Assembly (NCBI GenBank): GCA_029204225.1
Contig: CM055093.1
Location: forward strand, 23,603,912 to 23,667,911
Source: Diphasiastrum complanatum
Taxonomy: Eukaryota; Streptophyta; Lycopodiopsida; Lycopodiales; Lycopodiaceae
Direction of reading: 5' to 3'
DNA length: 64,000 nt
The position numbers were made by a program, and so were the translations under genes. Below, one piece after another: positions 13,168 through 49,779 of the stretch; position 1 is the stretch's first letter, and each line of letters opens with the position of its first letter. Under the pieces are notes generated by a model. The model saw only the letters and a program-made list of their open reading frames with translations. It made no database searches and was not told the DNA's origin.

Positions 13168-13179
13168 GCTCTGATACCA
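13168..13179 (-). other. Primer-binding site of E6
   Basis: The minus strand reads TGGTATCAGAGC, an exact plant initiator tRNA-Met type site, directly after the LTR end. Confidence 0.9.
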
Positions 13180-13560
13180 TGTGAAGTTTTTATCACGTGT
13201 GAACTTCACCACACACCTTACAGGATCTTACTGAGGTGTTGTGATTGTACAAGATTGATCAAAGAACAGTATGCTTGAAAAATGTAAGGCAAGAGCACAA
13301 TGGCATACATCTGATGAAAAAATCTAACTCTTCACTATGAGAAATGAATGTCAGAAATAATTCTAAGTGTTTATTATGGGAAAAAGAGGTTTCTCTCGGG
13401 TAGAGAGAGAAATTCAAGCATGAATAACTCGGGTAGAGAGAGAATGAGTCCAAAACACCAAAATCTCAATATTCACAACATGGCAAAACATGCCCAGCTT
13501 TTCTTATTTGAGACTCGACTCGAATTCCTACAGTGGAGTTGCATGGAAAGTCCACTTAAC
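13180..13560 (-). mobile_element. 5' LTR of E6 (outer end uncertain)
   Basis: The inner end (13180) abuts the primer-binding site and ends TTCACA on the minus strand. About 185 bp of it match, inverted, a plus-strand LTR fragment at 15604-15787. It carries CTCGGGTAGAGAGAGA twice, as the E10/E12 LTRs do. The outer end could lie anywhere up to about 13.9 kb. Confidence 0.6.
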
Positions 13561-13898: not shown

Positions 13899-14256
13899 AT
13901 AATCTTCACAAAATAGCTACAACTCAAATATCTTGACAGGAATCGAAGATATTTCTCATCATAATATGTCAAGATCAGTGTACAACTCAGATATCTTACC
14001 AGATGTCGAGGATGTGGTTACTCGTAATATATCTACATCAACATACAACTCGGATATTCTTACAGGTGTGGAGGATGTTGATAACAACAAAAATAAAAGA
14101 TGTCATTTTGAAATCAACAGTCAAACAAAGCGTACACCAAAATTGTCAATTTTGGCAAGTGCTACTGCATCCACCAGATGCAATTCATATTTTTCAAAGT
14201 TCGATTTTGATGAACATGATTACACAGGCATCATATTACATGATGCTAATATGTGA
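13899..14256 (+). CDS. ORF with 63-bp tandem coding repeats, unknown
   Basis: An open frame from just after a stop near 13895 to TGA 14254-14256. Units start at 13918, 13981 and 14044, exactly 63 bp (21 codons) apart, each beginning YNS-x-ILT or YNSDIL followed by GVEDV-like wording. The rest (CHFEINSQTKRTPKLSILAS) is not repetitive. There is no convincing ATG, so it may be an exon or a remnant. I do not recognise a family. The in-frame unit length and the conserved protein text argue that it was once coding. Confidence 0.4.
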
Positions 14257-15363: not shown

Positions 15364-15610
15364 AACCACAACTAAGGAGGTTTTATGGATCAAAAGGCTA
15401 CTTTTGGAGCTAAAGTGTTATGCAGATGAAGATCTTCCAATTATCAAGAATGATAACATTTCTGCTCAGGCTCTTGCAAATAATCCAGTCTTTCATGCAA
15501 GGAGCAAGCATATTGAAGTGGCTCATCATTTTGTAAGAGAAAAAGTCATTGGGAGAGAGATCTCATTGGAACATGTTTCATCTTCAGATTGTGCTGAACA
15601 CTTAGAATAA
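15364..15610 (+). pseudogene. Copia RNase H C-terminal fragment (E8)
   Basis: Reads TKEVLWIKRLLLELK, IIKNDNISAQALANNPVF and HARSKHIEVAHHFVREKVIG, ending at TAA 15608-15610. This is the end of copia RNase H, which removes the RNA template during reverse transcription. The preceding part is replaced by the minisatellite. Confidence 0.8.
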
Positions 15611-15787
15611 TTTTTTACATTCATTTCTCATAGTGAAGAGTTAGATTTTTTCATCAGATGTATGCCATTGTGCTCTTGCCTTAGATTTTTCAAGCATACT
15701 GTTCTTTGATCAATCTTTGCAATCACAACACCTCAGTAAGATCTTGTAAGGTGTGTGGTGAAGTTCACACGTGATAAAAACTTCACA
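15604..15787 (+). mobile_element. Partial 3' LTR of E8
   Basis: Matches the reverse complement of 13180-13365 (the E6 LTR) and ends with ACTTCACA at 15787. It includes CACACGTG at 15766. It directly follows the RNase H end, so E8 and E6 are relatives in opposite orientation. The LTR's beginning is missing. Confidence 0.7.
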
Positions 15788-16232
15788 TATTTGATCTTGT
15801 TGTATTGTAGTCGGCGGATTTATTTTCGACATCTTCTACACCACTCAAATAATCTGAATTATATAATGATCTTGTCATCGTTTTTTAGATGTTGCCCCTT
15901 TGTGAACCACAAGGCTGGCCCAACATTTTTCAGACGTTGCCCTTGTTTGAATCATTAGAATAATACGTAAAGCACTCACTTAATGGTTCAGTAAACGATA
16001 CATATTTTCTCTTTTTGGAGTGCAAAGACAGTTTTGACAAACACCAAATCATTTGGCCTCTTATTGACAATTTACCAAAATATGACTAAACTAGACTAAA
16101 CTAGTTGAAACCTCTCACACTCCCTATTCAACTAGTTTTGACAATAGAACTTTGATCCAACTTTAGAATGAGAGGTTTTGTGTTTTGTGTGTAGAACGGG
16201 TCTCTGTTATCTACCATGGCATTCTCAATATT
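15788..16232. other. Intergenic, nothing recognised
   Basis: No gene seen. Two similar phrases, GATGTTGCCCCTTTGTGAA and GACGTTGCCCTTGTTTGAA, lie about 50 bp apart (near 15890 and 15940). Confidence 0.3.
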
Positions 16233-16682
16233 TCTTTATGTTGTTATTGAAGTCAACTTCACGACAACAAGTAAGTTATTTTCACTAGGATCATAGCCTT
16301 TGAATTTAGCAGTGAAAACTACTACCCCTAGAAAATTCATACAATCAACAACGTCATCAATATTGTATAATGGACAGTTGGCAACAACGAGTTCATTCAT
16401 TTTGACAGTATCTGTATTATCTCACAAGATCTTTTTTGCAATGACATCGATGGATACATAGTTATAAACGTCTCCTAGGTGATCAAAATCACTGTGAGGG
16501 TATGACAAGGGACAATCCATTTTAAACACCTTTGAAATTAGGATGACACTTTTATCCCCACCAACTTCTTTGAAAAAACATGCTCCATTAGCAGTTAAAA
16601 CATTTCCAAATGCAACCACCTCTTTCCGAAAAAATAAAACAACTGGAACATCCTCTCTTGAGCAATCCATGCAGTGAGTCCC
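16233..16682 (-). pseudogene. Exon-like ORF of an unknown gene
   Basis: On the minus strand a T-run ending in CAG (acceptor at 16683-16684) precedes an open frame beginning GTHCMDCSREDVPVVLFFRK. It runs through FGNVLTANGACFFKEVGGDK to a TGA at 16422-16424, then stays open in the same frame (MNELVVANCPLYNIDDVVDC) to about 16255. A clean splice acceptor and long protein-like text suggest a former exon with one acquired stop. I do not recognise the family, and no other exon was found. Confidence 0.4.
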
Positions 16683-16804
16683 CTGAAAAAAAAAAAAAGT
16701 ATAAGCACACTTTATGTTAGGATTTGCTATAAGTAATTAAATCAAGAGTACACTGATGTAAAAGTATAATCAACAAAATTATGGAACTGTAACAAAATTA
16801 TGAA

Positions 16805-18025
16805 ACCTTAGTCCCTAGCTATTAGTCGGTGGCCCTTAGCCCATGGCCCTTGCTATGTTGTTTCGACCTTGGCCCTTGCCCCTCAGCCCTCGGCCCTTAT
16901 TCTTAGCACTTCACCCTTAACTCCTCACCTTTGGCTGGTCTTAGGCCTTGGGCCCTTTGGTCGTAGTCCTTAGCCCTTGGTCCTTGCACCACGGCCCTTA
17001 TTCCTAGCACTTCACCCTTAATCCTTGGCCCTTGCTCCTAGGTCCTTAGCCCTTAGCCCTTGCACGTAGGTCCTTCACGCTTGGCCCTTTACCCTAGGTA
17101 TTTGGACCTAGTCCTTAGCCTTTGGGCCTTGCCCCTAGTCCTTAGCCCTTAGCACTCAATCGCCCTCAACCCTTGGTGCTTAGCCCTTACCCCTTAGTCT
17201 GTAGCCCTTGGCCTTTGGGTCTTAGGCCTTGGGCCCTTTGGTCTTAGTCCTTAGCCCTTAGTCCTTGCACCTAGGTCCTTGCACCTAGGTCCTTCGCCTA
17301 GGTCCTGGTCCCTAGGTCTTTGGACCTAGTCCTTAGCCGTTGGGCCTTGGCCCTAGTCCTTAGCCTATTCGCCCTTTGACCTTTGGCACTAGCACTCAAC
17401 CTTTAAGTTGAAGCCTTTGGCCTTTAGTCCTTGGCCCTTGGCTCTTGGCCCTTAGTCCTTAGCTCTTGGCCTTTAGTCCTTGGCCCTTGGCTCTTGGCTC
17501 TTGGCTCTTGGCTCTTGGCCCTTAGCCGGTGACCCTTAGCCCTTCATCCATAGCTCTTGGCCCTTGGACCCTAGCCCTTGCCCCTTGCCCCTCGGCCCTT
17601 ATTCCTAGCACTTCACCCTTAATCCTTGGCCCTTGCTCCTAGGCCCTTAGCCCTTAGTCCTTGCACGTAGGTCCTTCGCCCTTAGCCCTTTGCCCTAGGT
17701 CTTTGGACCTAGTCCTTAGCCTTTGGGCCTTGCCCCTAGTCCTTAGCCCTTAGCACTCAATGGCACTCAGCCCTTGGTGCTTAGCCCTTACTCCTTAGTC
17801 TTTAGCCCTTGGCCTTTGGGTCTTAGGCCTTAGGCCTTGGCCCCTTGGCCCTTTGGTCTTAGGCCTCGGGTCCTTGCACATAGGTCCTTCGCCCTTAGCC
17901 CTAGGTCTTTGGACCTAGTCCTTAGCCTTTGGGCCTTTGGCCTTTGGTCCTTCGCCCTTTGCCCTTTGGCCCTTGGCATTAGCACTCGACCTTTAAGTTT
18001 AAGCCTTTGGCCTTGAGTCCTCGGT
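16805..18025. repeat. CCTTAGCCCTTGG array with 601-bp higher order
   Basis: About 1.2 kb made almost entirely of short words such as CCCTTAG, CCCTTGG, CCTTTGG and CCTAGGT. The plus strand is C/T-rich. A longer order is visible: the phrase TTATTCCTAGCACTTCACCC at 16998 returns at 17599, and text remains collinear for about 250 bp after both. The frames reading through it (minus strand, 17830-18180) encode only basic low-complexity protein and are not genes. Confidence 0.85.
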
Positions 18026-18589: not shown

Positions 18590-19030
18590 CATTTTTAGAT
18601 TTATTTTTAGTTTTTTGACTTGTTATTCATTTTTCATTTTTTAGACTTGTTTTTTAGGAGGTCATATTTGGAATTATTTTTAGGTGGTCTTATTTGGGTT
18701 TAACTTATTAATTTATCTTATTTGGTCTTATTTAGATTTAACTTATTTTTTATTTTATTTTTTATTGAGGCTATCTTATTTTTAATTTTTACGTTTTGTT
18801 TGGGTTTATCTTATTTTTTATTTTATTTCTTTTGGGTTTTTTGTATTTTATTTTTTCTTGGATTTATTGTATTTTGTTTTTGTTGGGTTCATTTTGTTTT
18901 ATTTCCTTTACTTTGGTTTATTTTATTTGGTTTCCATTATATTCTATTTGCTTAAAATTATTATTTTTGTTTCAAATTATTTTGGTTTTGGATACTGGTT
19001 TTATCCTTTTTAAACTTTTTTACTCTATTT
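18590..19030. repeat. T/G-rich low-complexity tract
   Basis: The plus strand is dominated by T and G, with words such as TTATTTTATTTGG and TTTGGTCTTATTTGG. Apparent Phe/Leu-rich hydrophobic frames here come from base composition. Confidence 0.7.
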
Positions 19031-19514
19031 CGTAATATATAGATATAAATAATATGCTTGGGATGAAGAGAGGAGGAGAGATGACCATGTGTCCCAAAAT
19101 TGTCCCATAAGCATTTTAGAACACCTGATTTTTCATTAGGGTATATAAAGGTGCCTGAACCAGTGTATTTCTCACCAATTGTGGGCAAACACTCTCAGTT
19201 AACTAAAATTGGCTCCTTCAATAGGGGCCAGTTTAAAAATTAGGTGATTCTACAAACTTCAATAAATTTTTTAAAAAAAGCTTCATTTTGAAATGCCACG
19301 TGAGATTGATTAGTGGCAATCTAATTATCCCATAATCTTTTGCCTAAATCGCACCCCCTTTAAAAGCATAAGTAGGCACCCCACTAGAGTTTTCTTACAT
19401 TGCTTTTGAAATTCTTACTACATTCCTATTTTCTTTTAAATTTGCCAATTGTTGCGATCTTTTTGAAAATTTTCTCTCACTTTTCTCTAAAACCGTGACT
19501 GCGAATTTTTTTTG
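19031..19514. other. Intergenic, nothing recognised
   Basis: No supported gene. It includes a GTATATAAAGG TATA-like word at 19140, with no ORF suitably placed downstream. Confidence 0.3.
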
Positions 19515-19810
19515 TCATTACACCCCCCTCCGGTCCCCGCCCACCACATGGGGGGGGGGGAGGGGAGTAATAGATTATTTTTTTTATTAAAAAAACTTAA
19601 ACCACCCCCCCACCCCAGACCGACAGGGGGGGTAATAAAAAGTTTTTTTTTAATTAAAAAAACTTAAGACCCCTTCACCCGTCGCGGCGGGTGCGCAAGG
19701 GGAGGGGGGAATATAGAGTTTTTTTTAAAATAAAAAAACAAACCCCCCCCCCCCCCAACATCCGCCACGGCGGGTGGGCCGGGTGGGGGGAGATTTAGTT
19801 TTATAATTTT
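19515..19810. repeat. Tandem GC-hairpin repeat, left cluster
   Basis: Four successive units of about 75-80 bp. Each has a C-run, a GC palindrome (best at 19676, CACCCGTCGCGGCGGGTG), a G-run, and then T-run/A-run filler with AACTTAA. C- and G-runs on both sides can pair or form G-quadruplexes. The same palindrome recurs at 20733-20820 and 30110-30262. Confidence 0.75.
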
Positions 19811-20820: not shown

Positions 20821-20888
20821 CTGGACGGGTGAGGGACTTAAAAAGACATTTTAATTTACTGCTTACAACTTCCTTTGTGTGATTTCAG

Positions 20889-21507
20889 ACATTCTACGCT
20901 GGTGTAGAAAATATTCTAAGACCCGTTGGTGAGGCCTCCCTAGTTTTCTTAAGAAGGGCTTGGAAGATTCAGCAGAAGCCGAGTTCAAACAGCTTACACA
21001 TGAAAGCATTTTTGGTTGTTTCAAAGGTTGCAGTGAGTGAGCCTGGGTTTACAATGCGTGATGTTGAGATTGTTGGCTTGATTCATGCCATTTTAATGCC
21101 TGAAGGTGTCCTTGTTGATAAGGTGGAATTCATGACTAGGGGGCCTAACGCAGAAGAATGCCATGTCGTTTTTTCATGTGCGAATACTGTTCACTTCACT
21201 GAGATACCAGATATTTACAACTCAGAAGGTGCCTTGCACATTTATGAAGGCAATCTTATTGAAGGCATGATTGCCCTTTCTAATGTCCATACCATGTTAA
21301 AGGAAATAGAGGAAGAACAAGGAATCTTGGGAGTGGTGGCAGACATATCCGTTGTCGTGGCTGTTGAAGATACCACTGAGCCGCAACTGGCAGTTTCTTC
21401 CACTCCAACTCCTGCTACAAAATAGGTGCATAGAAAAAAAAATAGCCAAACGTGCGAGTGAGGATCTTGTTAAGGATGACATTGCGATTGGAAGAAGGAT
21501 AGCTAAG
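20889..21507 (+). pseudogene. Unknown gene, 5' block, split by Copia-A
   Basis: After TTTGTGTGATTTCAG, a good plant 3' splice site, the frame is open from the first exon base 20889 to TAG 21425 (178 codons; an internal ATG is at 21000). Text such as GFTMRDVEIVGLIHAILMPE and GNLIEGMIALSNVHTMLKEI reads as a folded globular protein; EDTTEPQLAVSSTPTP looks like a linker. One frame over, EKKIAKRASEDLVKDDIA continues up to 21507. There the copia element is inserted, and the same frame resumes after it at 27358. So this was probably one gene with a frameshift near 21420. I do not recognise the family. Confidence 0.5.
21503..21507 (+). repeat. Target-site duplication of Copia-A, left copy
   Basis: CTAAG here equals CTAAG at 27358-27362. 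A 5-bp duplication is the norm for Ty1/copia insertion and fixes both element ends. Confidence 0.95.
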
Positions 21508-22158
21508 TGTGAAAGATTCAACTAGTTTCATCACATTTTGCAATATTTCCATATTTGGCATATTGAGGCCAAAACTTGTTTTAGACTTAGAGGTTGACTT
21601 TTCAAAGTTCATTAGTCTAAATTTCATTTGAATAAACACTTTTTGAAAGTGTGGGAAAGATAGAATGCGAGTTTGAGTAGATTCAATTTGAATAAGTTGG
21701 GTACATTGAATCTAGACCCAAAATTGGTAGGGTTAGCATTTTGGTGGGAAAGCCAAGTGGCCAAATAGGGTTTGGACCTGCTATAAAAGGATGTAACTCA
21801 TGGAGAGAGTCATCTTCTCTCTTCTCTATCTCATTTCATGCTTATACATGGTTCTCTTGGGTTCTACTATCCATTGGTGCACTATCTTGGTGATTGCTTG
21901 CAATTCTATGTGTAGAATGATCTATATTTGTTATTTTTGGATCCACACGTGTGAAATACAGTAGCTTTCTGGTTTTGTATAGACAACAACAATACATAAT
22001 CATTTCATTCAAGTTTTATCAAGTTCTATTAGTGTTTGCATCTCAAATTGTGTGTAGATGCTGATTTTTTCTACATTGGTGAAATTGGTAGTGTATTTCT
22101 CTTTCTAACCAAAGATCATTCAAGTAGATTGGATCTTAAGGATCTGAAATATTTCACA
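21508..22158 (+). mobile_element. 5' LTR of Copia-A
   Basis: Starts TGTGAAAGATTC, ends TTTCACA, 651 bp. It supplies the promoter and start of the element RNA. It contains a CACACGTGTG palindrome at 21944-21953. Confidence 0.95.
21781..21790 (+). promoter_or_regulatory. TATA box of Copia-A 5' LTR
   Basis: CTATAAAAGG, about 275 bp into the LTR, is a good plant TATA box and would set the U3/R boundary roughly 30 bp downstream. The 3' LTR has TTATAAAAGG at the same place. Confidence 0.75.
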
Positions 22159-22170
22159 TGGTATCAGAGC
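22159..22170 (+). other. Primer-binding site of Copia-A
   Basis: TGGTATCAGAGC begins at the first base after the LTR, complementary to the 3' end of initiator tRNA-Met in plant copia elements. A non-coding leader of about 590 bp follows. Confidence 0.95.
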
Positions 22171-22758
22171 TTGTGTTTCAGGTTATGAAGGAGGAAATCA
22201 GATCTATCAATGATTTGGTGAAGATATCAAGTCTAGAGCATGCTAGAGAGGATTCTACACCAAAATCGGATTTTTTGCTTTTGTAGATTGGATCTTTTGT
22301 AGATCAAAACACTAAATAGGTCAATATACTTGTTCAATTCCGTTTTCTGAATTCACATGCTGGATCTGGCCGATTTTTGGATCATTGGTTCAGCCTAAGT
22401 GGTGGCTTATAGATTGCATATCAAATTTTCAGCATTTGCATGTAGATTTGGAATAGTCAATTTTTTGTGATTTTGTCAAAATCCTAATTTTGATTGGATC
22501 TCTAGATAGTGAGGTTGCTGGACTTCATTTGAGTGTGTTTCAATCTTAGGAAGTGGCAAAAGTCATTAGATTGAGGATAGATCATAGGTTGATCAAGATT
22601 CCATGATTCTATGTGTTGATTTGCTTGGATAAGTGCTAGAAGAGAATTTGTGAGATAGTTTCAAATCTTGGTGATTTCTTTTGAAAGCATTTGTTGTTGT
22701 TCAAAGGAGTGCTTTGTGCATTGAAACAGGTTGAAAGAGAAGATCAGGTCATTGCTAC

Positions 22759-25700
22759 ATGGCAACCTCAATTGGAGTCATCTTGGAAGCCAATGATAGG
22801 CTTATCTCAAGTAACTATCATTATGGAAAGTGAGGATGGAGTCACTTCTTGAGATGAATAATGTTTTGGATATTGTTGTAGGTTTGGAGGAGAGACCAGC
22901 AACACAACAAGATCAATTGAGGTATGACAAGAGGGCCAAGAAGGCTCTACACATGATAAAGATGAATGTTACCAATGAACTTCTCAAGGAAGTTGGTAAG
23001 TGCACATCATCTTTGGAAGCTTGGAATTCATTGAAGAAGCTTTATGAATCCAAGTCTACTTCTAGAGTGTTGACTCTAAGAAGGCAAATCTTTTCGTTTT
23101 TGCAAAAGAATGAAGAAAGTCCAAGTACTTTTGTTTTGAGAATGAAAGCATTGAATGATGAGTTAGCTTGCATAGATGAAAGCATTAAGGAAGGAGAACT
23201 TATTCAAGTGATTCTTAATGGCTTGTTGAATGCTCATGCTAACATTGTTCAAAGTATTGCTATTCAAAAGACTTTGCCAAGTTTGATAAATCTTCAAGAG
23301 ATCTTGATCAATGAGGAATATAGGCTTCAAGCAAGAGGTGGATCTACATCGACACTTCAAGAGGATGCTATGTTCACAAAGGGCAAATTCAAGGGCAAAA
23401 CCAAAAGCAAGTGGTCTAAAGGGCAAGATCAAGTGGATGCTTCTTCAAGTGGCAAAAAGAAGGATAGATCAAAGCTTGAGTGCTTCTATTGTGGCATCAA
23501 AGGACACTTTGCAAGTGAGTGCTACAAGAAGAAGAGAGATCAAGGAGACAAGCAAGGTAATCTTACTCTTGATGAGGATGGTTTGGATGTGCAAGATGCA
23601 AATGATGATGCTTTTGTGATGTCTTCATGTATGCTTGCTAATGATGGAGATCTAGATCCTTGGTGGATTGATAGTGGAGCAAGTTCACACATGACCTTTC
23701 ACAAAGAGTACTTCACTTCTTTGTTGGCATATGGAGATGACAAGTGGGTGATCTACACGGCCAATGATGGTGAGTGTGCAATCAAAGGGATTGGCACAAT
23801 TCCTATTTCTCTCTCTACAAATAGGAATATTCATTTGGAGGATGTCTTGTTTATTCCATCTATTACCAAGAATTTGCTTAGTGTGAGTCAAATGCTAAGT
23901 AAGGGCCTCAAGGTGGAGTTTGATGGAGATGCTTGTTTGATCAAAAGGAAGGATGTCTTGATTGGAAAAGGTAAAAGGCAAGGGAAGTTGTTCAAACTTG
24001 ATGCTTGTGTTATTGCTAACCAAGTTGGATGTGTTGCAAGGGAGCAAATTCCTATTCAAGAGGTTTGGCACAAAAGGATGGGACACCTCAACTTCAAGTC
24101 ATTGGAGGTAATGGCAAGGAAGAAGGTTGTGATTGGTCTTCCAAGTTCCTTAAGTAATGACAAGTATGTTTGTGAGTCTTGTGCTTTGTCTAAGTCACAT
24201 AGACTACCTTATACTAGATCTATTTCTAGATCTACAAAGCCTTTTCAACTTGTACATTTGGATATTCATGGATTTACTACAATTAGCAATAGTGGAGCTA
24301 AGATGTATGTAACATTCATTGATGATTTTAGTAGATTTTGTTGGATCTATCTACTAAAGAGCAAGGATGAAGTGTATGATGTCTTTGTCAAGTTCAAGAA
24401 TGCAAGGGAGGACCAATTCTCCACAAAGATCAAGTGCTTGAGAGGTGACAATGGTGGCGAGTACATATCTAACAAGTTCAAGGCCTTTTGTGATGAGCAT
24501 GGGATCAAGAGGGAGTATACAACATCCAGGACCCCACAACAAAATGGAGTGGCTGAAAGGAAGAATAGAACTTTATGTGAAAGTGCTAAAGCTATGAGGT
24601 TAAGTGCTGATCTTAACAAACCATTTTGGGATCAAGCTTTGTTGTGTGCCAATTTCCTGTGCAATAGGTGGCCGAGTGCTATTTTGGATGGAAGGACACC
24701 TTTTGAGATGCTATTCAAGAGGAGGCCGAGTGTCAACTTTCTAAGAACCTTTGGATGCACATGCTATGTCAACATTACTCTTGATGATAGGACCAAGGAG
24801 GATCCATCTTCAAGAAGAGGTATTTTTGTTGGATATAGTGAGGTGAGTAAAGCCTACAAGGTTTACATTCCTTCTACTAACAAAGTGATTGTTGGTAGAG
24901 ATGTCATTTTTTATGAGGGGAACATTCCAAAGGTGTCTTCAAGCATGATTGCTGGTAAAGTAGATGGTTCTAACATTCTTGATGTTGATGAGAAGGATCC
25001 TACTTTGGATGGTGGTGATGATGGACCTTCATCAAGTCAAAAGCCAAGGAGAACATCAAGAGAAAGACAAGTACCTTCAAGGCTCACATATGATCAAAAG
25101 GGTAAGCAAGTAGTTTCTGGAAATTATGTTGCTTTCCTAACCTCTTTGGATGAGCCTACAAGTGTAGATCAAGCAAGGAAAGAAGAGGAGTGGATCCAAG
25201 CAATGGATCTTGAGTATCAAGCTCTTATGAAGAATGGAACACGGAGATTGGTGGAGTTGCCTAAGGACAAGAAAGCTATTGGATGCAAATGGATCTTCAA
25301 GGTGAAGACAAACCAAGATGGATCTATCAACAAGTACAAGGCAAGGTTAGTGGCAAAAGGATATGCTCAACAACAAGGAATTGACTATGATGAGACCTTT
25401 GCACCCGTGGCAAAGATGGTAAGCATTCGAGTCATCATTTCACTTGATACACTTTATGGATGGGATCTATGGCAAATGGAAATTTCAAATGCATTCTTGA
25501 ATGGTGATCTTGAGGAGGAAGTATACATGGAGCAACCCGAGAGCTACATCCCATCAACAAAGCCAAATCATGTGTGTCTTCTACAAAAGAGTTTGTATGG
25601 CCTTAAGCAAGCACCAAGGAGTTGGTATGCTAAGCTTAACACTTTTTTACTCTCTCAAGGCTTTGTTATGAGTGAGTATGATCATTCACTTTATTATAGG

Positions 25701-26711
25701 TTTGCTGGAAATGATGTTACCATCTTGCTAATCTATGTGGATGATATCATCTTGAGTGGTGGAGACAATCAAGATGTGGAGGATATCAAGAATGCTCTTA
25801 AGAAGGAGTTTGAGGTGCATCATCTTGGTAATTTGCATTACATTTTAGGAATAGAAGTCATTAGATCTTCTCAATCTACTTTCATTTGTCAAGAGAAGTA
25901 TGCTAATTCTATTCTAGAAAGATTTCATATGGTAGATGCAAAAGCTATTGATAAACCTATGGAGTCTCATGTAAAGCTTACTATAAGAGGTAATGAAAGA
26001 TCCTTCAAGGACATTACTCTCTATAGAAAGCTAGTTGGTTCACTCATCTATCTAACCATTACTAGACCTGATCTAAGCTATTGTGCTGGAAGATTGAGTC
26101 AATTCATGCAAGATCCTAGTGAGGAGCATTGGAAGCTACGAAAGCGAGTTTTGAGGTACATCATTGGAACTCGAGATTTTGGCATATTGTATGAGGGATC
26201 ATCACCTAATCTTTTTGGATTTTCAGATTCGGACTATGCTGGGGATATCATGGATAGGAGATCCATTAGTTCTTATTGTATTTTCATAGGTGATGGAGCT
26301 ATATCATGGATGTCAAAGAAACAAGCCACTATCTCATTGTCATCTAGTGAGGCCGAGTACAAAGCTCTTACACATTGCACAAAGGAGATGGTATGGATCA
26401 AGAGGATGATCAAGGATCTTCACTTGCTGGATTTTTCAGAGAGCCCAATCATCTTTTGTGACAATCACTCAGCCCAAAGAATGGCATCCAATCCTATCTT
26501 TCATGCTAGGAGCAAGCATATTGAGATACAATATCATTTTGTGAGGGAGCGAGTCATTGCCAAGGAGGTGGAGCTTCAACATGTGTCTTCAAGGGAATGT
26601 CTAGCTGATATCTTCACCAAAGCATTGGGAAAAGACTTGTTCATGAAGCATAGGACTTCACTTGGAGTATTATCAAAGTCTATGCTAAAACTAGTTGAAG
26701 AGGGAGTGTGA
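22759..26711 (+). pseudogene. Copia-A gag-pol polyprotein
   Basis: The natural ATG is at 22759, but one base appears to be missing near 22823, so that frame ends after 22 codons at a TGA. The long frame (22830-26711, 1293 codons; first ATG 22836) carries everything else. By residue of that frame: gag core 1-200, zinc knuckle CFYCGIKGHFASEC near 217, protease WWIDSGASSHMT near 277, pre-integrase VWHKRMGHLNF near 412, integrase Asp/Asp/Glu with GDNGGEY near 538 and GVAERKNRT near 573, RT with YVDDIIL near 968, and RNase H SSSEAEYKAL near 1170. RT motif A reads QMEISNAF: the catalytic Asp is replaced by Glu. Loss of the gag N-terminus and this change argue against autonomy. Confidence 0.93.
26697..26706 (+). 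other. Polypurine tract of Copia-A
   Basis: GAAGAGGGAG directly precedes the 3' LTR and primes second-strand synthesis. It overlaps the last codons of the polyprotein. Confidence 0.9.
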
Positions 26712-27357
26712 AAGATTCAACTAGTTTCATCACATTTTGCAATATTTCCATATTTGGCATATTGAGGCCAAAACTTGTTTTAGACTTAGAGGTTGACTTT
26801 TCAAAGCTCATTAGTCTAAATTTCATTTGAATAAACACTTTTTGAAAGTGTGGGAAAGATAGAATGCGAGTTTGAGTAGATTCAATTTGAATAAGTTGGG
26901 TACATTGAATCTAGACCCAAAATTGGTAGGGTTAGCATTTTGGTGGGAAAGCCAAGTGGCCAAATAGGGTTTGGACCTGTTATAAAAGGATGTAACTCAT
27001 GGAGAGAGTCATCTTCTCTCTTCTCTATCTCATTTCATGCTTATACATGGTTCTCTTGGGTTCTACTATCCATTGGTGCACTATCTTGGTGATTGCTTGC
27101 AATTCTATGTGTAGAATGATCTATATTTGCTATTTTTGGATCCACAGGTGTGAAATACAGTAGCTTGTTGGTTTTGTACGGACAGCAACAGTACATAATC
27201 ATTTCATTCAAGTTTGATCAAGTTCTATTAGTGTTTGCATCTCAAATTGTGTGTAGATGCTGATTTTTTCTACATTGGTGAAATTGGTAGTGTATTTCTC
27301 TTTCTAACCAAAGATCATTCAAGTAGATTGGATCTTAAGGATCTGAAATCTTTCACA
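26707..27357 (+). mobile_element. 3' LTR of Copia-A
   Basis: 651 bp, collinear with the 5' LTR. Most differences fall in a short block near 27146-27190; the G-box palindrome here is changed to CACAGGTGTG. Confidence 0.95.
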
Positions 27358-28445
27358 CTAAGCGCCTTGAAACCGTGGAAAAACGACCAATGCAATCAAG
27401 GCTTGATATATCTGACATGTGAATATCAAATTATGAGGACCTTGTATCAAGATCTGATCCCGAAGATGTGTTGGAGGACTTCCAGGGTGATACAAATGTG
27501 AATCTTGATGCATACTCAGAGGATGATGTCGGCTATGTTTGGGGAAGACACATGTATAGGGTGGATTCGAGGAATATACGTAGAGCCTGCCTTTTCACCA
27601 ACCAACGAGCCATGGACTACTCATTCGAAGAGCAATTGTATAAAGTGTGCATGCACAATGGCCCACCACCATTATCAATAAATGTGTCTCTAAGACCAAT
27701 GATGTTCCAAGAAGGAGATGACCCTGCCGTAGTCTTTGATAGCCCTCAAAAATTCATGACTGTCTACCTCGAGTTTCAAAGAAAAGATATAGTGGAGGCA
27801 GCCAGCAAATACAAAGAACTCTATCCAATGGAGGTGGACACTATTAAGGGCTCAAGAATGGATGGCTTGTGGAAAAATAGATTTTTGTCACATTGCACAT
27901 TTGAGCCTATAGATGGCCAACACTTCTGTTACGCATGTAGTGAAATAGCCACGAGAGACACGAGGCTTGCAAAACAATTGTATGATTCTTTATTCGCCTA
28001 TGTGCATTGTTTTATATGCATATTCAAAGACGAGGCGCGTTACATCTTGGAATCAGACCACCTGAATTTTCAACCACATGCCATGCATAAGAAAACAACC
28101 CTACTTGAGATTATGGAACGTGCACACGAGATATGGATCTCCTTGGGATGACCCGCTTACATCAAAGGAGTGAAGATGGATAATGAGACAAGTAGACGTA
28201 TGGCCTTGTTCTACCAAGGTCTCCGTGGCGTTGTGGGGAGTATAAACATTGGAGCCCAAAATGGAAAATTGCCTTTAAAAACTCTCTACAAAAAATTTGA
28301 TGAGTATACTTTAATCTTATTTCGTTCTGATGAAGTATTCAATAACTTCTTGGAGGTTATGAAACATTATGTAGCCGGGCACTTGCCATACGATGAACCA
28401 GACTTCATTGTGCATAAAGTGAAGAACATGCCATTGGTTATTTGA
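27358..28445 (+). pseudogene. Unknown gene, 3' block with DGQH motif
   Basis: Once Copia-A and one CTAAG are removed, the frame from the left side runs on here (RLETVEKRPMQSRLDISDM), meets TGA 27420-27422, and is open to TGA 28149-28151. It is open again in the same frame to two consecutive TGA codons ending at about 28448. The long middle block (227 codons) includes RDIVEAASKY-like helix text, then FEPIDGQHFCYACSEIATRD near 27900-27950, then helical text to the end. PIDGQH followed by a helix recalls box II of ParB and DGQHR proteins, although the usual Arg after DGQH is Phe. That is a resemblance only; an unrelated plant or transposon gene is equally possible. Confidence 0.45.
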
Positions 28446-28759
28446 TGAATAATTTTAATTTCATACAACATTCATCAAACAAAAATAAATATCATCTATT
28501 ATTCAAATTTTGTATTCCAATACAAAATAGGGCTGTAAAGAATACTTTAATTCAAAAAATGTTCATATTTTGTATTCCAATGTAAAAAAGGGCAGTAACA
28601 ACCTCTACCGCCTGAGGTATATAATTCTATGTATTCAAACAACGACAGTAACAACCCCTACCACCTGAGGTGACATCAAAAAGTTTGCCTTTTTGGTTTT
28701 GGCATAACCCTCATTACAAAGTAATTACTTAAGAACTATAGCTGTCATTACAAAGTTCG
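28446..28759. repeat. Convergent 3' intergenic region with duplications
   Basis: Lies between the stops of two convergent genes. TTTTGTATTCCAAT plus flanks occurs near 28508 and 28567, and CAGTAACAACC-TACC-CCTGAGGT occurs near 28592 and 28645, so a unit of roughly 55 bp has been duplicated twice. Confidence 0.55.
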
Positions 28760-30075
28760 CTATGTATGATCAAATTCTGAATCTTCCTCTGATTCAAAAA
28801 ATTGTGGATCAACACTTCCCTGAGATGCTTGCCCTTCAAAACCTGACTCCAAAGACTTCACAACATCAAGATAGGATTTACTTAGTTCGACATTGTGGCT
28901 ATTGTCGATCGTTATAAGTTTACGACCAGTGACATTCAACAATGGCGTGACACAATTCGATAGCCGAAACAAGCAGACCAACTATTCAGGGGTAGAAAAA
29001 AAATCAACAATTTTGTTGATGCCTTTCCAATGCTTTGCTCTGTTTTTTTGTGCCAGTGAGCATGTAACAAAGTGTTTAATTTATTTTCCTCCATCACCAA
29101 AGCAAAGGGTCAAGAATTTCAATTTGTTGTGCACACAAGGGGACACATCACTTGGGTGCATCTTCATTGTACAGAACAAAAAAAAATAGACTATAAATTT
29201 TGCACATGAATGCCACCTTGTTTTAAAGGGGCAACCAACTCGTAATAACCTTCAAATATAGAGAACCTGATGTCATGCATTGATTTTAGGCTCCCCTTTA
29301 CCCCCGCTTTGATATTTTGCTCCAAAAATAATACAATGACACAAACTTTATGTTTGTCCATTAGGGTCTTTAGACAATGGCGCACCATGGATGTGATGTA
29401 GCTGGATCTCAAGGACTCGATATTGTCGAATATATTCAATGTTGGACTATCCCAAGCAGATGCAGGAATGACCATAAAATTGGACTCATCGACTCTGCAA
29501 CAAATCGCTGCATTGCCCTGTGAGGTCTTCACTTTACAAAAAAACCGCCATCTAGTGCCGACGGTGCTAGTAGTGCTCCCAATGTCAACCTGTCGAATGC
29601 TTTGCATATGTTTTTCTTTTATTTTTTCTACACATTGTCTCAAAGCAGGCAGTATTTCATTTTGAAGTTTAGATGAAATACTTCTTGTACTACTTGTCAT
29701 CGCTCTAATCCAATCAAAGTCAAATTTCTTGTTAATGGTTGTGGATAGCCGTTTTATTATATCTTTATCATACACCAAGTTCTGTGGCAAATCGGTATCC
29801 AACGAAATAAAAAATTGACAACGTACAAGGAAGACATTTCCTTCACAATGTTAGCTGCTCCCACTTCAATATTTTTTTTTTTTGTTTCTTTTTTCGAAGT
29901 ACAACTCGCCTTCCAAAACTTTCTTGAGAACATGATTACATATCGAATCTGGAAGGAACCGCAATACTCTGTACCATTTAGCTTTGTCAAGTATCTTTTT
30001 ATTGGTTTTAGTCCATAAGAAAACAAATGCTTCAATGATGTGCACCATTTTTACCATATTGTTTGATAAAATCAC
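28760..30075 (-). pseudogene. Unknown minus-strand gene, decayed
   Basis: Coding text covers most of this span in shifting frames. It runs WTKTNKKILDKAKWYRVLRF near 30000, a break in a 12-base homopolymer near 29870, a 203-codon frame 29802-29191 (DFDWIRAMTSSTRSISSKLQ; TRWRFFCKVKTSQGN; YYELVAPLKQGGIHVQNL), a break near 29185, then HNKLKFLTLCFGDGGK, TAA 29081-29083, FSTPE, TAG 28982-28984, LVCLFRLSNCVTPLLNV and a very acidic end (FESEEDSEFDHT) at 28760. The last three blocks share one frame. I do not recognise it. YELVAPLKQGG and FSTPE-LV faintly recall adenine methyltransferases, but no D-P-P-W/Y motif is seen. Confidence 0.4.
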
Positions 30076-30109
30076 AATCCAATTTTTTTAACTTCTCCAT
30101 AAAAGAAAA

Positions 30110-30262
30110 AATTCAAGCTCCACCCGTCGCGGCAAGGGAAGCCTAAAAAGAAAAAATTAATTTTTTTTTTAAGGCTCCACCCACCGCGGTGGACCCTCCA
30201 AAATTGTTTTTCAGATTTTTTTTTGGAGGCTCCACTCACCGCGATGGATGGTGCCTCCAGAA
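30110..30262. repeat. GC-hairpin repeats, right cluster
   Basis: Three copies about 55 bp apart of a GGCTCCACCC / GCGG unit: CTCCACCCGTCGCGGC near 30117, CTCCACCCACCGCGGTGG near 30175, and CTCCACTCACCGCGATGG near 30231. They are separated by A- and T-runs. This is the palindrome family found left of the gene pair at 19515-19810 and 20733-20820. Confidence 0.65.
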
Positions 30263-30540
30263 ACAAATATATCTTTTGTAAAACAAGTATCAAACATTGT
30301 CAAAATTCAGTTATTTTGTGATTAATTAACATCTTGAAATTCTTCTGTCCATTTTTTAAAATGGATTTTGAGAAAGTCCAAAATTAATTGAGACAGTGTT
30401 GATTATAATTTCTAGTATAGTGGATGTATTGGTGACAATAGTATGGTTTTCATTTAATATGGAGAAGTATATCTTGTACAATGCTATATATATGGCTTAC
30501 AACCTCAATATCAGAGCATTGTAGAAAATTATCTACAAAC

Positions 30541-36359: not shown

Positions 36360-37103
36360 ATGTCTTCAATGGGTTCATCCTTGTTGGAACCAAGTGAAAG
36401 ATTGACCACTTCAAATTATTCAATTTGGAAAATGAGGATGGAGTCCATCTTGATCCTTCAAGACGTGATGGACATAGTTCTTGGCCTTGAAGAATAACCA
36501 CAAGTTCTTCAAGAGGTTCAAAAATACAAAAAGAGAGCTAGGATGGCTCTCCACTACATTAAGATGAATGTCTCTAATGAGATATTGAGGGAGATCGGTA
36601 CTTGTACAACAGCCAAAGAAGCATGGGATTGTGAGGCTAAGAATACCTCTAGGCTTCTCACTCTTAGGAATCAAATCTTTCAAAGTAGCCAAAAGAGTGA
36701 TGAGAGTGCATCTAGTTATGTTTTGAGAGTAAAAGATATTCATAGAGAGCTTGCTTGCATTGGTAATTCCATCAATCAAAATGAGCTAGTTCAAGTCATT
36801 CTCAATGGCTTGAGAAGTGAATTTGATAACCTTGTCCAATCCTATGCCATTAAGGAGGAGCTACCAAGTTTGGAGGCTCTCCAAAGTGTGCTAATTTCGG
36901 AAGAATCAAGACAAGAGTACAAGCTCTTGAGGATGGGCAAGCTTTCTCTCACTCATAATGATGGCAAAGCTCTCTTTGCCAAGGATAAGCACAAAGAGAG
37001 GAGCAAGAACCAACATCAACAATCCTCAAGCAAGGACCAAGTCAAATCCAAAGACAAAGATGAGGAGGAAGATGATTCCTCTAATGCTTCATCATCCAAG
37101 CTC
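36360..37103 (+). pseudogene. Gag of E10
   Basis: ATG 36360 (MSSMGSSLLEPSERLTTSNY). GAA has become TAA at 36495-36497, about 46 codons in. After that, NEILREIGTCTTAKEAWDC is followed directly by AKNTSRLL; compared with E12, seven codons (LKTIYEP) are missing. Gag then runs to DSSNASSSKLN, where it is cut before the zinc knuckle and joined to integrase sequence. Confidence 0.88.
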
Positions 37104-39018
37104 AACAAGGAAGAAGGAAGATCCTAGTGCATGCAAAGGGATCGTGGTTGGATACTCATCCACCAAGAAGGCCTATAGAGTCCTTATACTCTCTACTTCT
37201 CAAGTTATTGAAAGTAGAGATGTTGTCTTTCATGAAGATCAACACTCATCATTTGAAGAGGCCGAGATCAAGAAATCTATGGATGCATCATCAATTATTG
37301 ATTTTGAAGACAATCATGATGTGATGGGGTCGAGATTTGAAGAAGACTCTCCTCGGATTTTTTCACCAAGAAGATCCATGAGAGATAGATCCGAGCCTAA
37401 GAGGCTCTCATATGTTGACAAAGGCAAACAAGTGGATCTTGATTCCACTAATTATGTTTTTTATGTCTCTCATGAAGAGCCAAAGAATGTACAAGAGGCA
37501 CTCAATACCAAGGAGTGGTATGATGCCATGAAGCAAGAGTATGATGCATTGATCACCAACAATACTTGGGAGCTTGTGGATCCTCCATCCAACAAGCATG
37601 TGATTGGTTGCAAGTGGGTATTTCGGATCAAGTTCAATCATGATGGCACCATCAACAAGCATAAAGCAAGATTATGTGCCAAAGGATTTGCTCGAATCCA
37701 TGGTCTTGATTATGAGGAGACCTTTGCACCCGTTGCAAAGATGGTGACAATAAGAATTATTATTTCTCTTGCTTGTTTTTTCAAGTGGAAGGTATTCCAA
37801 TTAGATGTATCCAATGCTTTTCTAAATGGTTACCTTGAGGAGGAGATCTATATGGAACAACCTCAAGGATTCATCAAGGATGAGTCCAAAGTGTGCTTGC
37901 TCTTCAAAAGTCTTTATGGACTCAAGCAAGCACCAAGATCATGGTATTCAAGACTTAACTCTTTTCTTATCTCACTAGGATTTACTCTTAGTGACTATGA
38001 TCCTTCCATGTATCTAAAGTTTGTTGATAGCAATATTGTCATTCTTCTAATTTATGTTGATGACATTATTCTTTGTGGAAGTTGTATCAAGCTAGTTGAT
38101 GAAACCAAGCTAGCACTTGGATGTGAGTTTAAAATGCAAGATCTAGGAGAGATACATTACATCCTAGGCCTAGAAATTGATTTTTATGAAAATCATGTCT
38201 TTATATGCCAATCTAGATATGCTCACTCTATGTTGAAAAAATTCCATATGGAAAATTCTAAGAGCATAGATACTCCAATGGAGCAATTTGTAAAAGATCC
38301 TAATAAAGGTGATGAAAGATCCTTTGGGGACATCACACTTTTTAGGAGTCTTGTAGGCTCCTTGATTTGGCTTACCATTACTAGGCCCGATCTAAGTTTT
38401 TGTGTGCACAAATTGAGTCAATTTATGCAAGATCCTAAGATTCATCATTGGAAGATGGCCAAGAGGATTCTAAGATATGTATCTTCATCTTGTGATTATG
38501 GTCTACTCTATAAAAGTGAAGATCTATCCATTGTTGGCTACTCGGATTCGGACTTTGCAAGTGAAAAGATGGATCGAAAGTCTATTAGTGCATACACTAT
38601 CTTTCTTGGAGGCAATCTAATATCTTGGCTTTCCAAAAAGCAAGATACTATATCTCTCTCTTCATGTGAGGCCGAGTACAAAGCACTCACTACAACTACC
38701 AAAGAGGTGCTTTGGATCAAGAGGTTACTATTGGAGCTAAAGTGCATCAAGGAAGATGATCTACCAATGATCAAGTGTGATAACATCTCGGCCCAAGCTC
38801 TTGCCAACAATCCCGTATTTCATGCAAGAAGCAAGCACATAGAAGTGGCACACCATTTTGGGAGAGAAAAGCTTATTGGAGGAGAAATCTATTTGGAGCA
38901 TGTCAACTCGTCCTCTTGTATTGCCGATCTACTCACCAAGCCTTTGAGCAAAAGTGCTTTCATCAAGCATAGATCTAATCTTGGAGCTATATCAAGATCA
39001 ATGCTCAAATCTTCATAG
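37104..39018 (+). pseudogene. Fused integrase C-terminus, RT and RNase H of E10
   Basis: The open frame 36958-39018 enters at the deletion joint (AACAAGGAAGAAGG) and reads KKEDPSACKGIVVGYSSTKK of the integrase C-terminus. It continues through the linker (SPRRSMRDRSEPKRLSY), RT (FQLDVSNAFLNG, YVDDIIL) and RNase H (SLSSCEAEYKALT), ending SMLKSS. RT and RNase H catalytic residues look intact, but there is no protease, zinc knuckle or integrase core. Its translation is indistinguishable by eye from the E12 counterpart. Confidence 0.92.
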
Positions 39019-40139: not shown

Positions 40140-40682
40140 ATTAGTTGTGGATTAGGATTCAGTTCTTGTTTGTGGAATGAGGTACTAATCAGCATTCAAG
40201 TAAACTAGATAGGCTGGTTTGTGGTATAGATCTTGCATACTCCCTTGCAACCCAGTTCTTGATTGTTCTTGAGTAATCTAAGCATCAAGTAATGAGTGTT
40301 TCTTGATTCTTAGATTATTAAAATGCTGCTAGGAATCTTGTTTCTTGTTTCTTGAATCTCGTTTCTTGTTCCAGTAGTTAATCTTGTCTTTGATTGTTTC
40401 TGATTTAGTAGATAATGGTAAGATTGCTCCCTGTTCTAAAATGTTGATCTTCTTGAGCTATAGATGGTTACATGGCTAGTTATGCATGTAGCTGAGTATC
40501 GAAACCATGTCACTCATTGATAGGCTGGGAAATACATGCTGAAAACTGAGTAACGCTTCTGCTTGTAACTGTTCTAATAAAAAGAAGTACCATAAAGAAC
40601 AATAACTACAGAAGTATAAGAAGAAGCAAAAAACCATGTTCACAGATTCAAGGAATCCGTGAACAGGTCAAGAACAGAATAT
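40140..40682. other. Intergenic or intron, nothing recognised
   Basis: AT-rich with repeated TTGTTTCTTGAATC wording. It ends in GTGAACAG, which could be a splice acceptor for the next frame. Confidence 0.3.
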
Positions 40683-41179
40683 TTTGGCCTAAGCTCACAG
40701 GCGTGGATACCGGCAACTTAGCCAAAGACATGGTCACCAATTGCCGAGTATTCTACCAGAAGCACCATGGCAATCCTGATCGCGATGTCAGATACTTTGC
40801 GGATAATTGTAGCCTGGTGGTATTTCTGGCAGAACTCAGAGGTTTTTGGGATCGAGGGTTACCCCCAATCGCCCTTGACATCAATAAACCCTTGCACATG
40901 CAAGATGACCATATCAATGTTGCAAGGTTCTATTATCGCGCTGCACTCACTTCCGCCCTGCACGTTGATATGGTGGAGCTATGGAAAACCCATAACTTTT
41001 TTCAGGGTATGCTCCATTGATACAAACCCATGCCCTTACTGGACAAATTACAGTCGCAAATGATGGAGGGCATCGGCACGGCAATCTACCACTCCCGACA
41101 GCAACAGTCTCGCCTCCAAGAAGCACAAAAGATCCAGGACGAAAAGGCGTCGATTGGTGTGGGACCACCAATCCAATAA
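40683..41179 (+). pseudogene. Terminal protein of an LTR element, unfamiliar
   Basis: One frame is open from about 40663 through RIFWPKLTGVDTGNLAKDMV, HHGNPDRDVRYFADNCSLVV and DDHINVARFYYRAALTSALH. It is interrupted by TGA 41018-41020, then continues in the same frame (MPLLDKLQSQMMEGIGTAIY, a helical Gln-rich end) to TAA 41177-41179. A purine tract and an LTR-like start follow within 13 bp, so this was probably the 3' end of a retroelement's coding region. It is not RNase H or integrase as I know them. It is more GC-rich than its surroundings, consistent with capture. Confidence 0.45.
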
Positions 41180-45061: not shown

Positions 45062-46996
45062 TACTCCTCCTAAAAAATTATCTATGAAGATTTGAGCATT
45101 GATCTTGATATAGCTCCAAGATTAGATCTATGCTTGATGAAAGCACTTTTGCTCAAAGGCTTGGTGAGTAGATCGGCAATACAAGAGGACGAGTTGACAT
45201 GCTCCAAATAGATTTCTCCTCCAATAAGCTTTTCTCTCCCAAAATGGTGTGCCACTTCTATGTGCTTGCTTCTTGCATGAAATACGGGATTGTTGGCAAG
45301 AGCTTGGGCCGAGATGTTATCACACTTGATCATTGGTAGATCATCTTCCTTGATGCACTTTAGCTCCAATAGTAACCTCTTGATCCAAAGCACCTCTTTG
45401 GTAGTTGTAGTGAGTGCTTTGTACTCGGCCTCACATGAAGAGAGAGATATAGTATCTTGCTTTTTGGAAAGCCAAGATATTAGATTGCCTCCAAGAAAGA
45501 TAGTGTATGCACTAATAGACTTTCGATCCATCTTTTCACTTGCAAAGTCCGAATCCGAGTAGCCAACAATGGATAGATCTTCACTTTTATAGAGTAGACC
45601 ATAATCACAAGATGAAGATACATATCTTAGAATCCTCTTGGCCATCTTCCAATGATGAATCTTAGGATCTTGCATAAATTGACTCAATTTGTGCACACAA
45701 AAACTTAGATCGGGCCTAGTAATGGTAAGCCAAATCAAGGAGCCTACAAGACTCCTAAAAAGTGTGATGTCCCCAAAGGATCTTTCATCACCTTTATTAG
45801 GATCTTTTACAAATTGCTCCATTGGAGTATCTATGCTCTTAGAATTTTCCATATGGAATTTTTTCAACATAGAGTGAGCATATCTAGATTGGCATATAAA
45901 GACATGATTTTCATAAAAATCAATTTCTAGGCCTAGGATGTAATGTATCTCTCCTAGATCTTGCATTTTAAACTCACATCCAAGTGCTAGCTTGGTTTCA
46001 TCAACTAGCTTGATACAACTTCCACAAAGAATAATGTCATCAACATAAATTAGAAGAATGACAATATTGCTATCAACAAACTTTAGATACATGGAAGGAT
46101 CATAGTCACTAAGAGTAAATCCTAGTGAGATAAGAAAAGAGTTAAGTCTTGAATACCATGATCTTGGTGCTTGCTTGAGTCCATAAAGACTTTTGAAGAG
46201 CAAGCACACTTTGGACTCATCCTTGATGAATCCTTGAGGTTGTTCCATATAGATCTCCTCCTCAAGGTAACCATTTAGAAAAGCATTGGATACATCTAAT
46301 TGGAATACCTTCCACTTGAAAAAACAAGCAAGAGAAATAATAATTCTTATTGTCACCATCTTTGCAACGGGTGCAAAGGTCTCCTCATAATCAAGACCAT
46401 GGATTCGAGCAAATCCTTTGGCACATAATCTTGCTTTATGCTTGTTGATGGTGCCATCATGATTGAACTTGATCCGAAATACCCACTTGCAACCAATCAC
46501 ATGCTTGTTGGATGGAGGATCCACAAGCTCCCAAGTATTGTTGGTGATCAATGCATCATACTCTTGCTTCATGGCATCATACCACTCCTTGGTATTGAGT
46601 GCCTCTTGTACATTCTTTGGCTCTTCATGAGAGACATAAAAAACATAATTAGTGGAATCAAGATCCACTTGTTTGCCTTTGTCAACATATGAGAGCCTCT
46701 TAGGCTCGGATCTATCTCTCATGGATCTTCTTGGTGAAAAAATCCGAGGAGAGTCTTCTTCAAATCTCGACCCCATCACATCATGATTGTCTTCAAAATC
46801 AATAATTGATGATGCATCCATAGATTTCTTGATCTCGGCCTCTTCAAATGATGAGTGTTGATCTTCATGAAAGACAACATCTCTACTTTCAATAACTTGA
46901 GAAGTAGAGAGTATAAGGACTCTATAGGCCTTCTTGGTGGATGAGTATCCAACCACGATCCCTTTGCATGCACTAGGATCTTCCTTCTTCCTTGTT
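44328..46996 (-). repeat. Inverted-repeat arm 2 (with 37104-39773)
   Basis: 2669 bp. Beyond 46996 similarity to E10 continues only at normal family level (gag proteins about 90% alike), so the near-identity has a sharp edge here. Confidence 0.9.
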
Positions 46997-47232
46997 TCCA
47001 AGGGAATCTGGACAAAGCATAAGCATTCAGAAACTCTAAGGTGATCAACCTTAGGCTTCTTCAAATATAAGATTTCATATGGTGACTTTCCTCCAAGAGC
47101 TATATGTGGGAGCCTATTGCAAAGATAATTTCCAGAATTAATGGCTTCTCCCCAAAAGTCTTTGGGCAAAGATGCCTCAATTCTCATAGATTTTGCACAT
47201 TCACATAGAGATCTATTCTTTCTCTCAGCCAC
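45082..47232 (-). pseudogene. Integrase C-terminal half, RT and RNase H of E12
   Basis: A 716-codon frame starting at the catalytic Glu region of integrase (AERKNRSLCECAKSMRIEA). It passes through the integrase C-terminus, linker, RT (FQLDVSNAFLNG; YVDDIIL) and RNase H (LSSCEAEYKAL; FHARSKHIEVAHHF), and ends SMLKSS. No internal stop. It is separated from the integrase N-terminus by frameshifts at about 47232-47350. Confidence 0.93.
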
Positions 47233-47550
47233 TCCATTTTGAGATGGAGAGTAGGCACAAGAGAACTCTTTTTTGATGCCTTCAAGCTCACAAAAGCCTT
47301 GAAATTTATTGGAGATATATTCATCACCTCCGTCACTTCTAAGAGCTTTAATCTTGAATTGAGAATTGCTTCTCTACAAAAGCTTTGAAAATAAGGAAAT
47401 GATCAAACACCATAGATTTAGAAGCAAGAAGATATATCCAAGTGAATCTTGTGAAATCATCAATGAAAGTAACAAAACAAGTGGCTCCTCCCTTGCTTGT
47501 AGTTGATGAGAAATGCACATCCGATTGGATTAACTCCAAAGGATGCTTGC
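47233..47550 (-). pseudogene. Integrase N-terminal core of E12, frameshifted
   Basis: Frame 47539-47348: ELIQSDVHFSSTTSKGGATC, FVTFIDDFTRFTWIYLLASK, then a frameshift; SDGGDEY-type text near 47325 replaces the usual SDNGGEY. Confidence 0.85.
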
Positions 47551-49068: not shown

Positions 49069-49779
49069 TTGAAGTGAATAAAACTCAAATGATAAACAAT
49101 AAATATTGCTACACACTCTCAATAGGATCCAATAATAGAGTACTATCTCTTCCTATGAAAGATCTTGCAACTATTTGTGAATTGATTCTCACTAGCTACA
49201 CAAATCTCTCTAAAACAAGATCTATTTCACATCAAATGATGGAGTATAGGCAAAGTTAGGATCAAACACTCTTAGCACGTGTGAAGTACTCTAAGAAAAC
49301 AAATTTGACTCAAATTGAATGATATTGCATGAAACAAAATGGCTAAGATCTCAAAACAGTGCTAGATCACATATAGATGAGATTGGCAACATACAACTGT
49401 GATTCTGGATCAACCAAGCAATCTCTTGACCAAATCAAATGTGTCCACCCAGGTCTAGGTGACCTACCTAACCCTCTTCAAAAGCTTATAACTTCTGATT
49501 GGCTCAACCAAATGGAATGAAACTGACTGCATCAGACACTAGACAAAAATAGCTTCAAAACAAGCTATTAAGCAAGATAAATGGATCAAGCATGAGAGAG
49601 AACTTCCAAACTGAATTTGGATGTTCCTCGCATGTGTCTGAGCACCTGATTCCGTATAGTACCAGGTCAGACCCAATCAATGTCCTTTTGATCTCTTTTG
49701 ATCCAAAATTGAACAAGATAGCTAGGAAAATGGGCCTTGATAATTTCTAGCTCAAGACCTTAGGTAGGCTTTGATACCA

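Follow-up and report, generated by a model that had tools for sequence, protein, structure and literature searches.

Organisation of the locus

We analysed a 64,000-nucleotide window of the 1.74 Gb genome of Diphasiastrum complanatum (C2:23603912-23667911), in which a long decayed plus-strand gene, interrupted by a copia retrotransposon, had been annotated as meeting a minus-strand gene tail to tail. The region very probably holds a dead, rearranged member of a family of cut-and-paste DNA transposons with terminal inverted repeats (TIRs) and two genes, which we name Y and X. Gene Y encodes a conserved protein with a DGQH motif; gene X lies upstream of Y on the opposite strand and encodes a DUF7869 protein, the likely transposase. 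The coordinates of all parts are collected in Table 1, where A to E denote successive pieces of Y.

Three long open frames are seen around the copia insertion, of 180 codons (20883-21422, plus strand), 242 codons (27423-28148, plus strand) and 219 codons (29194-29850, minus strand). Among 400 sequences of 7.1 kb randomised by a first-order Markov model, the longest frame had a median of 109 codons, a 95% point of 149 and a maximum of 183. The 242- and 219-codon frames exceed the longest frame in all 400 randomisations, and the 180-codon frame lies above the 95% point and below the maximum; the three long frames of the initial annotation are confirmed. The copia element is a clean insertion, with 651-bp long terminal repeats (LTRs) that are 98.2% identical and a 5-bp duplication, CTAAG, at 21503-21507 and 27358-27362, and it does split the plus-strand gene as had been proposed. 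Its LTR has 99-100% matches at 22 of 40 scored places in the genome.

The PIDGQH motif noted previously in the plus-strand gene is present. Of the 15 alignment rows spanning the motif, 14 have IDGQH and one has INGQH, and all 15 have F after H. CAG or TAG stands directly 5' of exon A in eight of the 12 copies from the exon A search that show that site. The TATA-like box upstream of Y is exact in four and has one change in two of the six aligned copies covering it, and we read it as part of a putative Y promoter.

Table 1. Parts of the transposon copy and of the copia sequences that disrupt it, in window coordinates.
Feature	Position	Strand	Remarks
Gene X, further coding piece	13933..14253	+	inverted relative to rest of X; uninverted in L015
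Gene X, next coding piece	15792..15926	-	
Gene X, N-terminal exon fragment	16180..16700	-	two in-frame stops
Conserved 5' region of Y	18593..19531	+	TATA-like TATATAAA at 19142-19149
Gene Y exon A, N-terminal part	20889..21507	+	frame broken near 21423; cut by copia; 85-90% matches across genome
Copia retrotransposon within Y	21508..27357	+	one 1298-codon frame; LTRs 21508-22158, 26707-27357
Gene Y parts B and C (PIDGQH motif)	27358..28447	+	in-frame TGA 28149-28151, another just 5' of 27423
Gene Y 3' part (F', D, E)	28448..29977	-	inverted in window copy
Y-side element end	29978..30400	+	28-bp TIR 30373-30400
Copia LTR copy on one flank of second inversion	13179-13371		96.4% inverted match to 15597-15788
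Copia LTR copy on opposite flank of second inversion	15597-15788		96.4% inverted match to 13179-13371

The convergent gene pair is an inversion

Related copies in the same genome have the parts of Y in the order A-B-C-D-E on a single strand. In window coordinates their order is 20889..21507, then 27358..28447, then the reverse complement of 28448..29977, and then 29975..30400. We fetched 17 further copies through exon A matches; at least one of the two uninverted junctions is present in eight of these (L012, L013, L014, L016, L017, L018, L019 and L022), the remaining nine end short of the junction, and the order seen in the window occurs in none of the 17. When the genome was searched with 29700-30420 (52 matches listed, 40 of 666 candidates scored), the window alone crossed the breakpoint, and the other 51 listed matches either finish by query position 279 or begin at 276 or beyond. 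In our reading of the aligned copies the inversion junctions have ATG/CAT in common. In five of six more distant copies (L026-L029 and L031; L030 shows no D) C is followed by D on one strand, and in L026 this arrangement lies inside a 622-codon open frame.

There is thus no convergent gene pair, which we reject on the colinear order of the related copies and on the failure of all 51 other listed matches to cross the breakpoint; the segment 28448-29977 is inverted in this copy. The supposed minus-strand gene is the downstream part of gene Y, flipped, because other copies carry the colinear order, and its annotated limit at 30075 falls 98 bp past the breakpoint at 29977.

A different rearrangement is seen in L017 and L018 (L017 528-1592 and 2290-5125), where the Y-end part is inverted ahead of the promoter region; their B is cut short at a position shared with L011 and L015, and we regard them as a rearranged sub-lineage.

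The window copy is dead. Gene Y has a frame shift near 21423, the copia insertion, in-frame stops and the inversion, and gene X has in-frame stops and is further disrupted by a second inversion, of the stretch that lies between oppositely oriented copia LTR copies. Neither the transposase exon of X, sought with tblastn, nor an X-side TIR was found in the window.

Element ends and gene order

The 28-bp TIR, allowing up to two mismatches, occurs at 700 places in the genome (343 + 357), and its reversed control at none. Homology halts at 30400 in six fetched copies, and among 24 other genome matches that reach the Y-side end, 19 stop exactly at 30400 and five within 6 bases of it. The TIR is found with two different neighbours, TGGATTTTGAG in what we call Y-type ends (190 places) and TAAATAAATTAA in X-type ends (180 places); both controls gave 0. 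Both ends were located in three elements of 7.7-13.8 kb, at C1:69041720-69055471 (28-bp repeats facing outward, flanked by AGGT), C7:7927495-7935154 (repeats likewise facing outward, flanked by GATT) and C20:47220131-47230263 (flanked by ATTA).

Gene order was examined among the best 150 matches each of B, X and the transposase exon (T), together with the best 100 ends per side; the counts that follow refer to these listed matches. Where an X occurs within 16 kb of B, the closest one lies upstream on the opposite strand in all 11 of 11 cases, the window being one, and the nearest T to B is so placed in nine of 10. T comes after X, in the same direction, in 25 of 27 cases. An X-type end lies beyond T on its strand in 16 of 18 cases and follows X in 16 of 17, Y-type ends lie downstream of B in 14 of 15, and no listed X-type end is within 6 kb of any B. 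The layout, the TIRs, the flanking 4-bp repeats, the inversions and the selection on Y are shown here. The initial annotation was right that a copia-cut mobile element with two genes is present; its second gene is the upstream, divergent X and not the minus-strand block.

By eye, two small inverted repeats (CCATTTT..AAAATGG and ATTTTG..CAAAAT) are seen beside the Y-end TIR (30300-30400, and in L013, L016, L022 and L027), and the four X-ends that we read (L033, L035, L042 and L044) are without them. A GC-rich minisatellite built from CCTTAGCCCTT-like units occupies positions 16800-18024, between X and Y, and has matches in L022 and L025.

Gene X and DUF7869

Pfam searches with five frames of gene X matched DUF7869 (PF25273), carried by the transposase exon, in four, with E values of 6e-43 to 1e-48 and scores of 147-166 bits, all exceeding the curated cut-off of 26; the fifth frame, a piece of L038 upstream of the domain, had no DUF7869 match. 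The match covers nearly the whole model, with positions 4-187 of 192 aligned in L036 (E 1.2e-48). An alignment of four X proteins keeps the motifs IIxGMD, DNxWxxNKN and GHxHEDIDQ, which we read as the putative D-D-E/D residues of a transposase. A profile search of PDB sequences with the X transposase region found no relative. The DUF7869 protein of gene X is likely a DDE-type transposase, with catalysis presumed from these motifs. Within the host genome the best 150 of 2953 DUF7869 candidates were scored, and 14 control genomes gave 0.

Conservation of gene Y

The best 150 of 852 candidate genome matches to piece B, the window included, are 44-100% identical to it. In 22 comparisons between Y subfamilies the proportion of synonymous differences (pS) was 0.73-0.97, near saturation, and that of nonsynonymous differences (pN) was 0.23-0.31; six pairs within subfamilies gave ratios of nonsynonymous to synonymous rates (dN/dS) of 0.22-0.58. 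Three pairs of X sequences from different subfamilies gave dN/dS of 0.09-0.14. These comparisons left out poorly aligned columns, which favours conserved ones. Gene Y is under purifying selection between subfamilies, and we read the low pN at near-saturated pS as that of a working gene during spread of the family.

The 150 listed B matches include a cluster of 13 in a 0.75-Mb stretch (C21:36.43-37.18 Mb), with 56-58% identity to the window, which we read as local amplification of one Y subfamily.

Comparison with ParB/DGQHR proteins and methyltransferases

PIDGQH had been likened to box II of ParB/DGQHR proteins, and phrases of the minus-strand gene to methyltransferases. The window pieces had no ParB match in Pfam at E values up to 10 or in PHROGs at values up to 1, seven aligned Y members had none in Pfam up to E 1, one member had none in NCBIfam, and PDB sequences gave none either. 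The Pfam ParB_N model had 0 matches in the host genome at E ≤ 1, with no first-stage candidate, and matches in 11 of 14 control genomes. As references we gathered at least 80 viral loci with IDGQHR, 78 of which have frames of at least 90 codons; these frames fell into sets of 26, 17, 15 and 5, two sets of 2, and 11 singles. The phage P1 par region (L054) and an F plasmid region with the ccdAB genes (L055), retrieved as ParB yardsticks, were left out of the comparison.

Profile-profile comparison, which had been proposed as a check, gave probabilities of 1.2-7.4% for the Y profile against the four larger DGQHR sets; with the two sets of 2 it reached 0.7-0.8%. DGQHR sets scored 96-99% against each other (five pairs), reversed Y 0.1-0.4% and the X profile 0.1-1.4%. 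Against the pooled 67 DGQHR sequences Y reached 12.3%, over eight columns round the motif, and with the five DGQH motif columns masked it gave 0.1-0.4%. Because the motif was the criterion for choosing the references, a small signal of this kind is expected. Gene Y thus has the letters I-D-G-Q-H in common with DGQHR, DndB and ParB-fold proteins but is without profile similarity beyond the motif, and has F, not R, after H. We therefore reject membership of the ParB/DGQHR group. A distant shared ParB/Srx fold is possible because the Y profile is shallow (effective number of sequences 2.1); a single-sequence structure model of 27423-28445 had a mean confidence (pLDDT) of 34.7, too low for a fold search.

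Membership of a methyltransferase family is likewise rejected, as neither the window pieces, D among them, nor the family alignment matched such a model in Pfam or NCBIfam or among PDB sequences, and PHROGs gave none either. No significant relative was found in collections of viral, phage and prokaryotic sequences, where pattern scans mainly reach close relatives.

Several weak matches, all below curated cut-offs where one exists, were set aside. These were, in Pfam, Exo70_C (E 0.0016, D), DUF7434 (E 0.017, A) and Cys_rich_FGFR (E 0.11, B); ORC6 (E 0.034) in one of seven Y members; PHROGs of unknown function at E of at least 0.029; a PDB aldehyde dehydrogenase (E 0.063, B); Nse5 (E 0.52, D); and ACT_phage (E 0.005, L036) and DUF2784 (E 0.043, X).

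The proposed element and its alternatives

In the DNA transposon that the window copy very probably represents, the usual element runs from one TIR through X (leftward), a shared upstream region and Y (rightward, the DGQH protein) to the other TIR. The X transposase would bind the 28-bp TIRs and excise the element, and insertion at a staggered cut would leave the 4-bp duplications. Y is a second protein of the element, maintained by selection, and most likely assists either transposition, by binding the ends or assembling the complex, or expression; this role and the manner of movement are what we infer. In the window copy, the copia insertion split Y, a 1.5-kb inversion with ATG/CAT breakpoints turned its 3' part round and so created the false convergent gene, and the second inversion, between copia LTR copies, broke X.

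Several observations weigh against this interpretation. Both ends were found in three of the 10 elements examined for ends, all three with 4-bp flanking repeats, and L040, L041, L043, L045, L046, L047 and L049 are missing one or both ends within the fetched stretches. The X-end TIR of the C7 element has four mismatches, and that of the C20 element is read as lacking the last four TIR bases. Because only the best matches were listed, linkage is seen in a minority and most genes have no listed partner; four listed X genes have a Y-type end as the nearest downstream listed end within 9 kb, and one of three listed pairs of Y- and X-ends within 20 kb faces the same way. No element with both an intact X and an intact Y was seen among the copies examined. 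Within subfamilies X is near neutral (dN/dS 0.60-1.0, three pairs), and in L036 and L037 the first D of IIDGMD is replaced by A and by Y, which fits decay. The fetched copies include duplicated pairs (L013/L014, L017/L018 and L020/L021) that were counted twice, so independent cases are fewer. None of the literature searched names DUF7869 or describes a function for it.

An asymmetric Helitron-like element was considered, as few paired ends were seen, and dropped once the X-type ends were found; a CAGTG close to the element end had suggested CACTA, which was set aside because of the 4-bp repeats. We regard as very improbable the proposal that the locus is an imported phage-like or bacterial-like module, a convergent pair of a ParB-like and a methyltransferase gene. 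PIDGQH does resemble the DGQHR motif, the spacing of N and S after DGQH recalls DndB-type proteins as a by-eye impression, and ParB-fold/methyltransferase fusions are described as frequent in phages in part of PMC12704722; however, the convergent layout is refuted as an inversion, the searches gave neither a ParB or methyltransferase match nor a significant viral, phage or prokaryotic relative, and the similarity is confined to the motif that selected the references. That Y is a captured passenger gene or an anti-silencing factor, rather than a transposition helper, is possible, though we lean away from it. Y has no known domain, selection on Y fits such a role or a helper role, and anti-silencing proteins are carried by some plant transposons, such as VANC of VANDAL elements; yet Y occupies a fixed place beside its own type of end (14 of 15 listed), as a core element gene would.

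It is possible, though somewhat less likely than not, that the family belongs to the Sola superfamily as one of its lineages instead of forming a superfamily of its own. Our three measured elements, 7.7-13.8 kb long, are flanked by 4-bp repeats, but other superfamilies also make 4-bp duplications. In the relevant part of PMC10741241, Sola elements have a DDD transposase and 4-bp target duplications, are mostly 2-9 kb and up to more than 15 kb, and are known in a moss. Duplications, TIRs, size range and an acidic-triad transposase are alike (the X triad as read from motifs, Sola by description), whereas the second conserved protein, Y, is a difference from Sola as described. Repbase superfamilies are listed in part of PMC4455052, and a Repbase entry for this family is possible. 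We think it unlikely that DUF7869 marks a separate eukaryotic transposon superfamily with a DDE transposase and an obligate DGQH partner recognising the Y-side end; such a partner would explain why X- and Y-ends have a common 28-bp core and different neighbours.

PIF/Harbinger and En/Spm (CACTA) elements also have two genes, a transposase and an accessory gene, and TIRs, but their duplications are 3 bp rather than the 4 bp seen here. No Pfam domain of PIF/Harbinger or CACTA was matched in the frames scanned.

Other features of the window

Segments 36498-39015 (plus strand) and 45085-49152 (minus strand) belong to one copia family in opposite orientation, with long shared protein stretches, and are a further possible source of inversion. 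An open frame that continues past the window edge (63410-64000, plus strand) has a match to a SWIM zinc finger, PF04434, at E 4.8e-4; its score of 20 bits just passes the cut-off of 19.6, and the frame is perhaps part of another transposon. A 156-codon frame at 40550-41017 (plus strand) has no Pfam match and is not copia-like in appearance.

Implications

The family points to a likely job, as a DDE transposase, for DUF7869, a Pfam domain named as of unknown function that is now seen inside a TIR element with flanking 4-bp repeats. The locus also illustrates that nested insertions and inversions in plant repeats can mimic a new gene arrangement. With its TIRs, its flanking 4-bp repeats and a conserved partner gene, the element offers handles on DUF7869 function.

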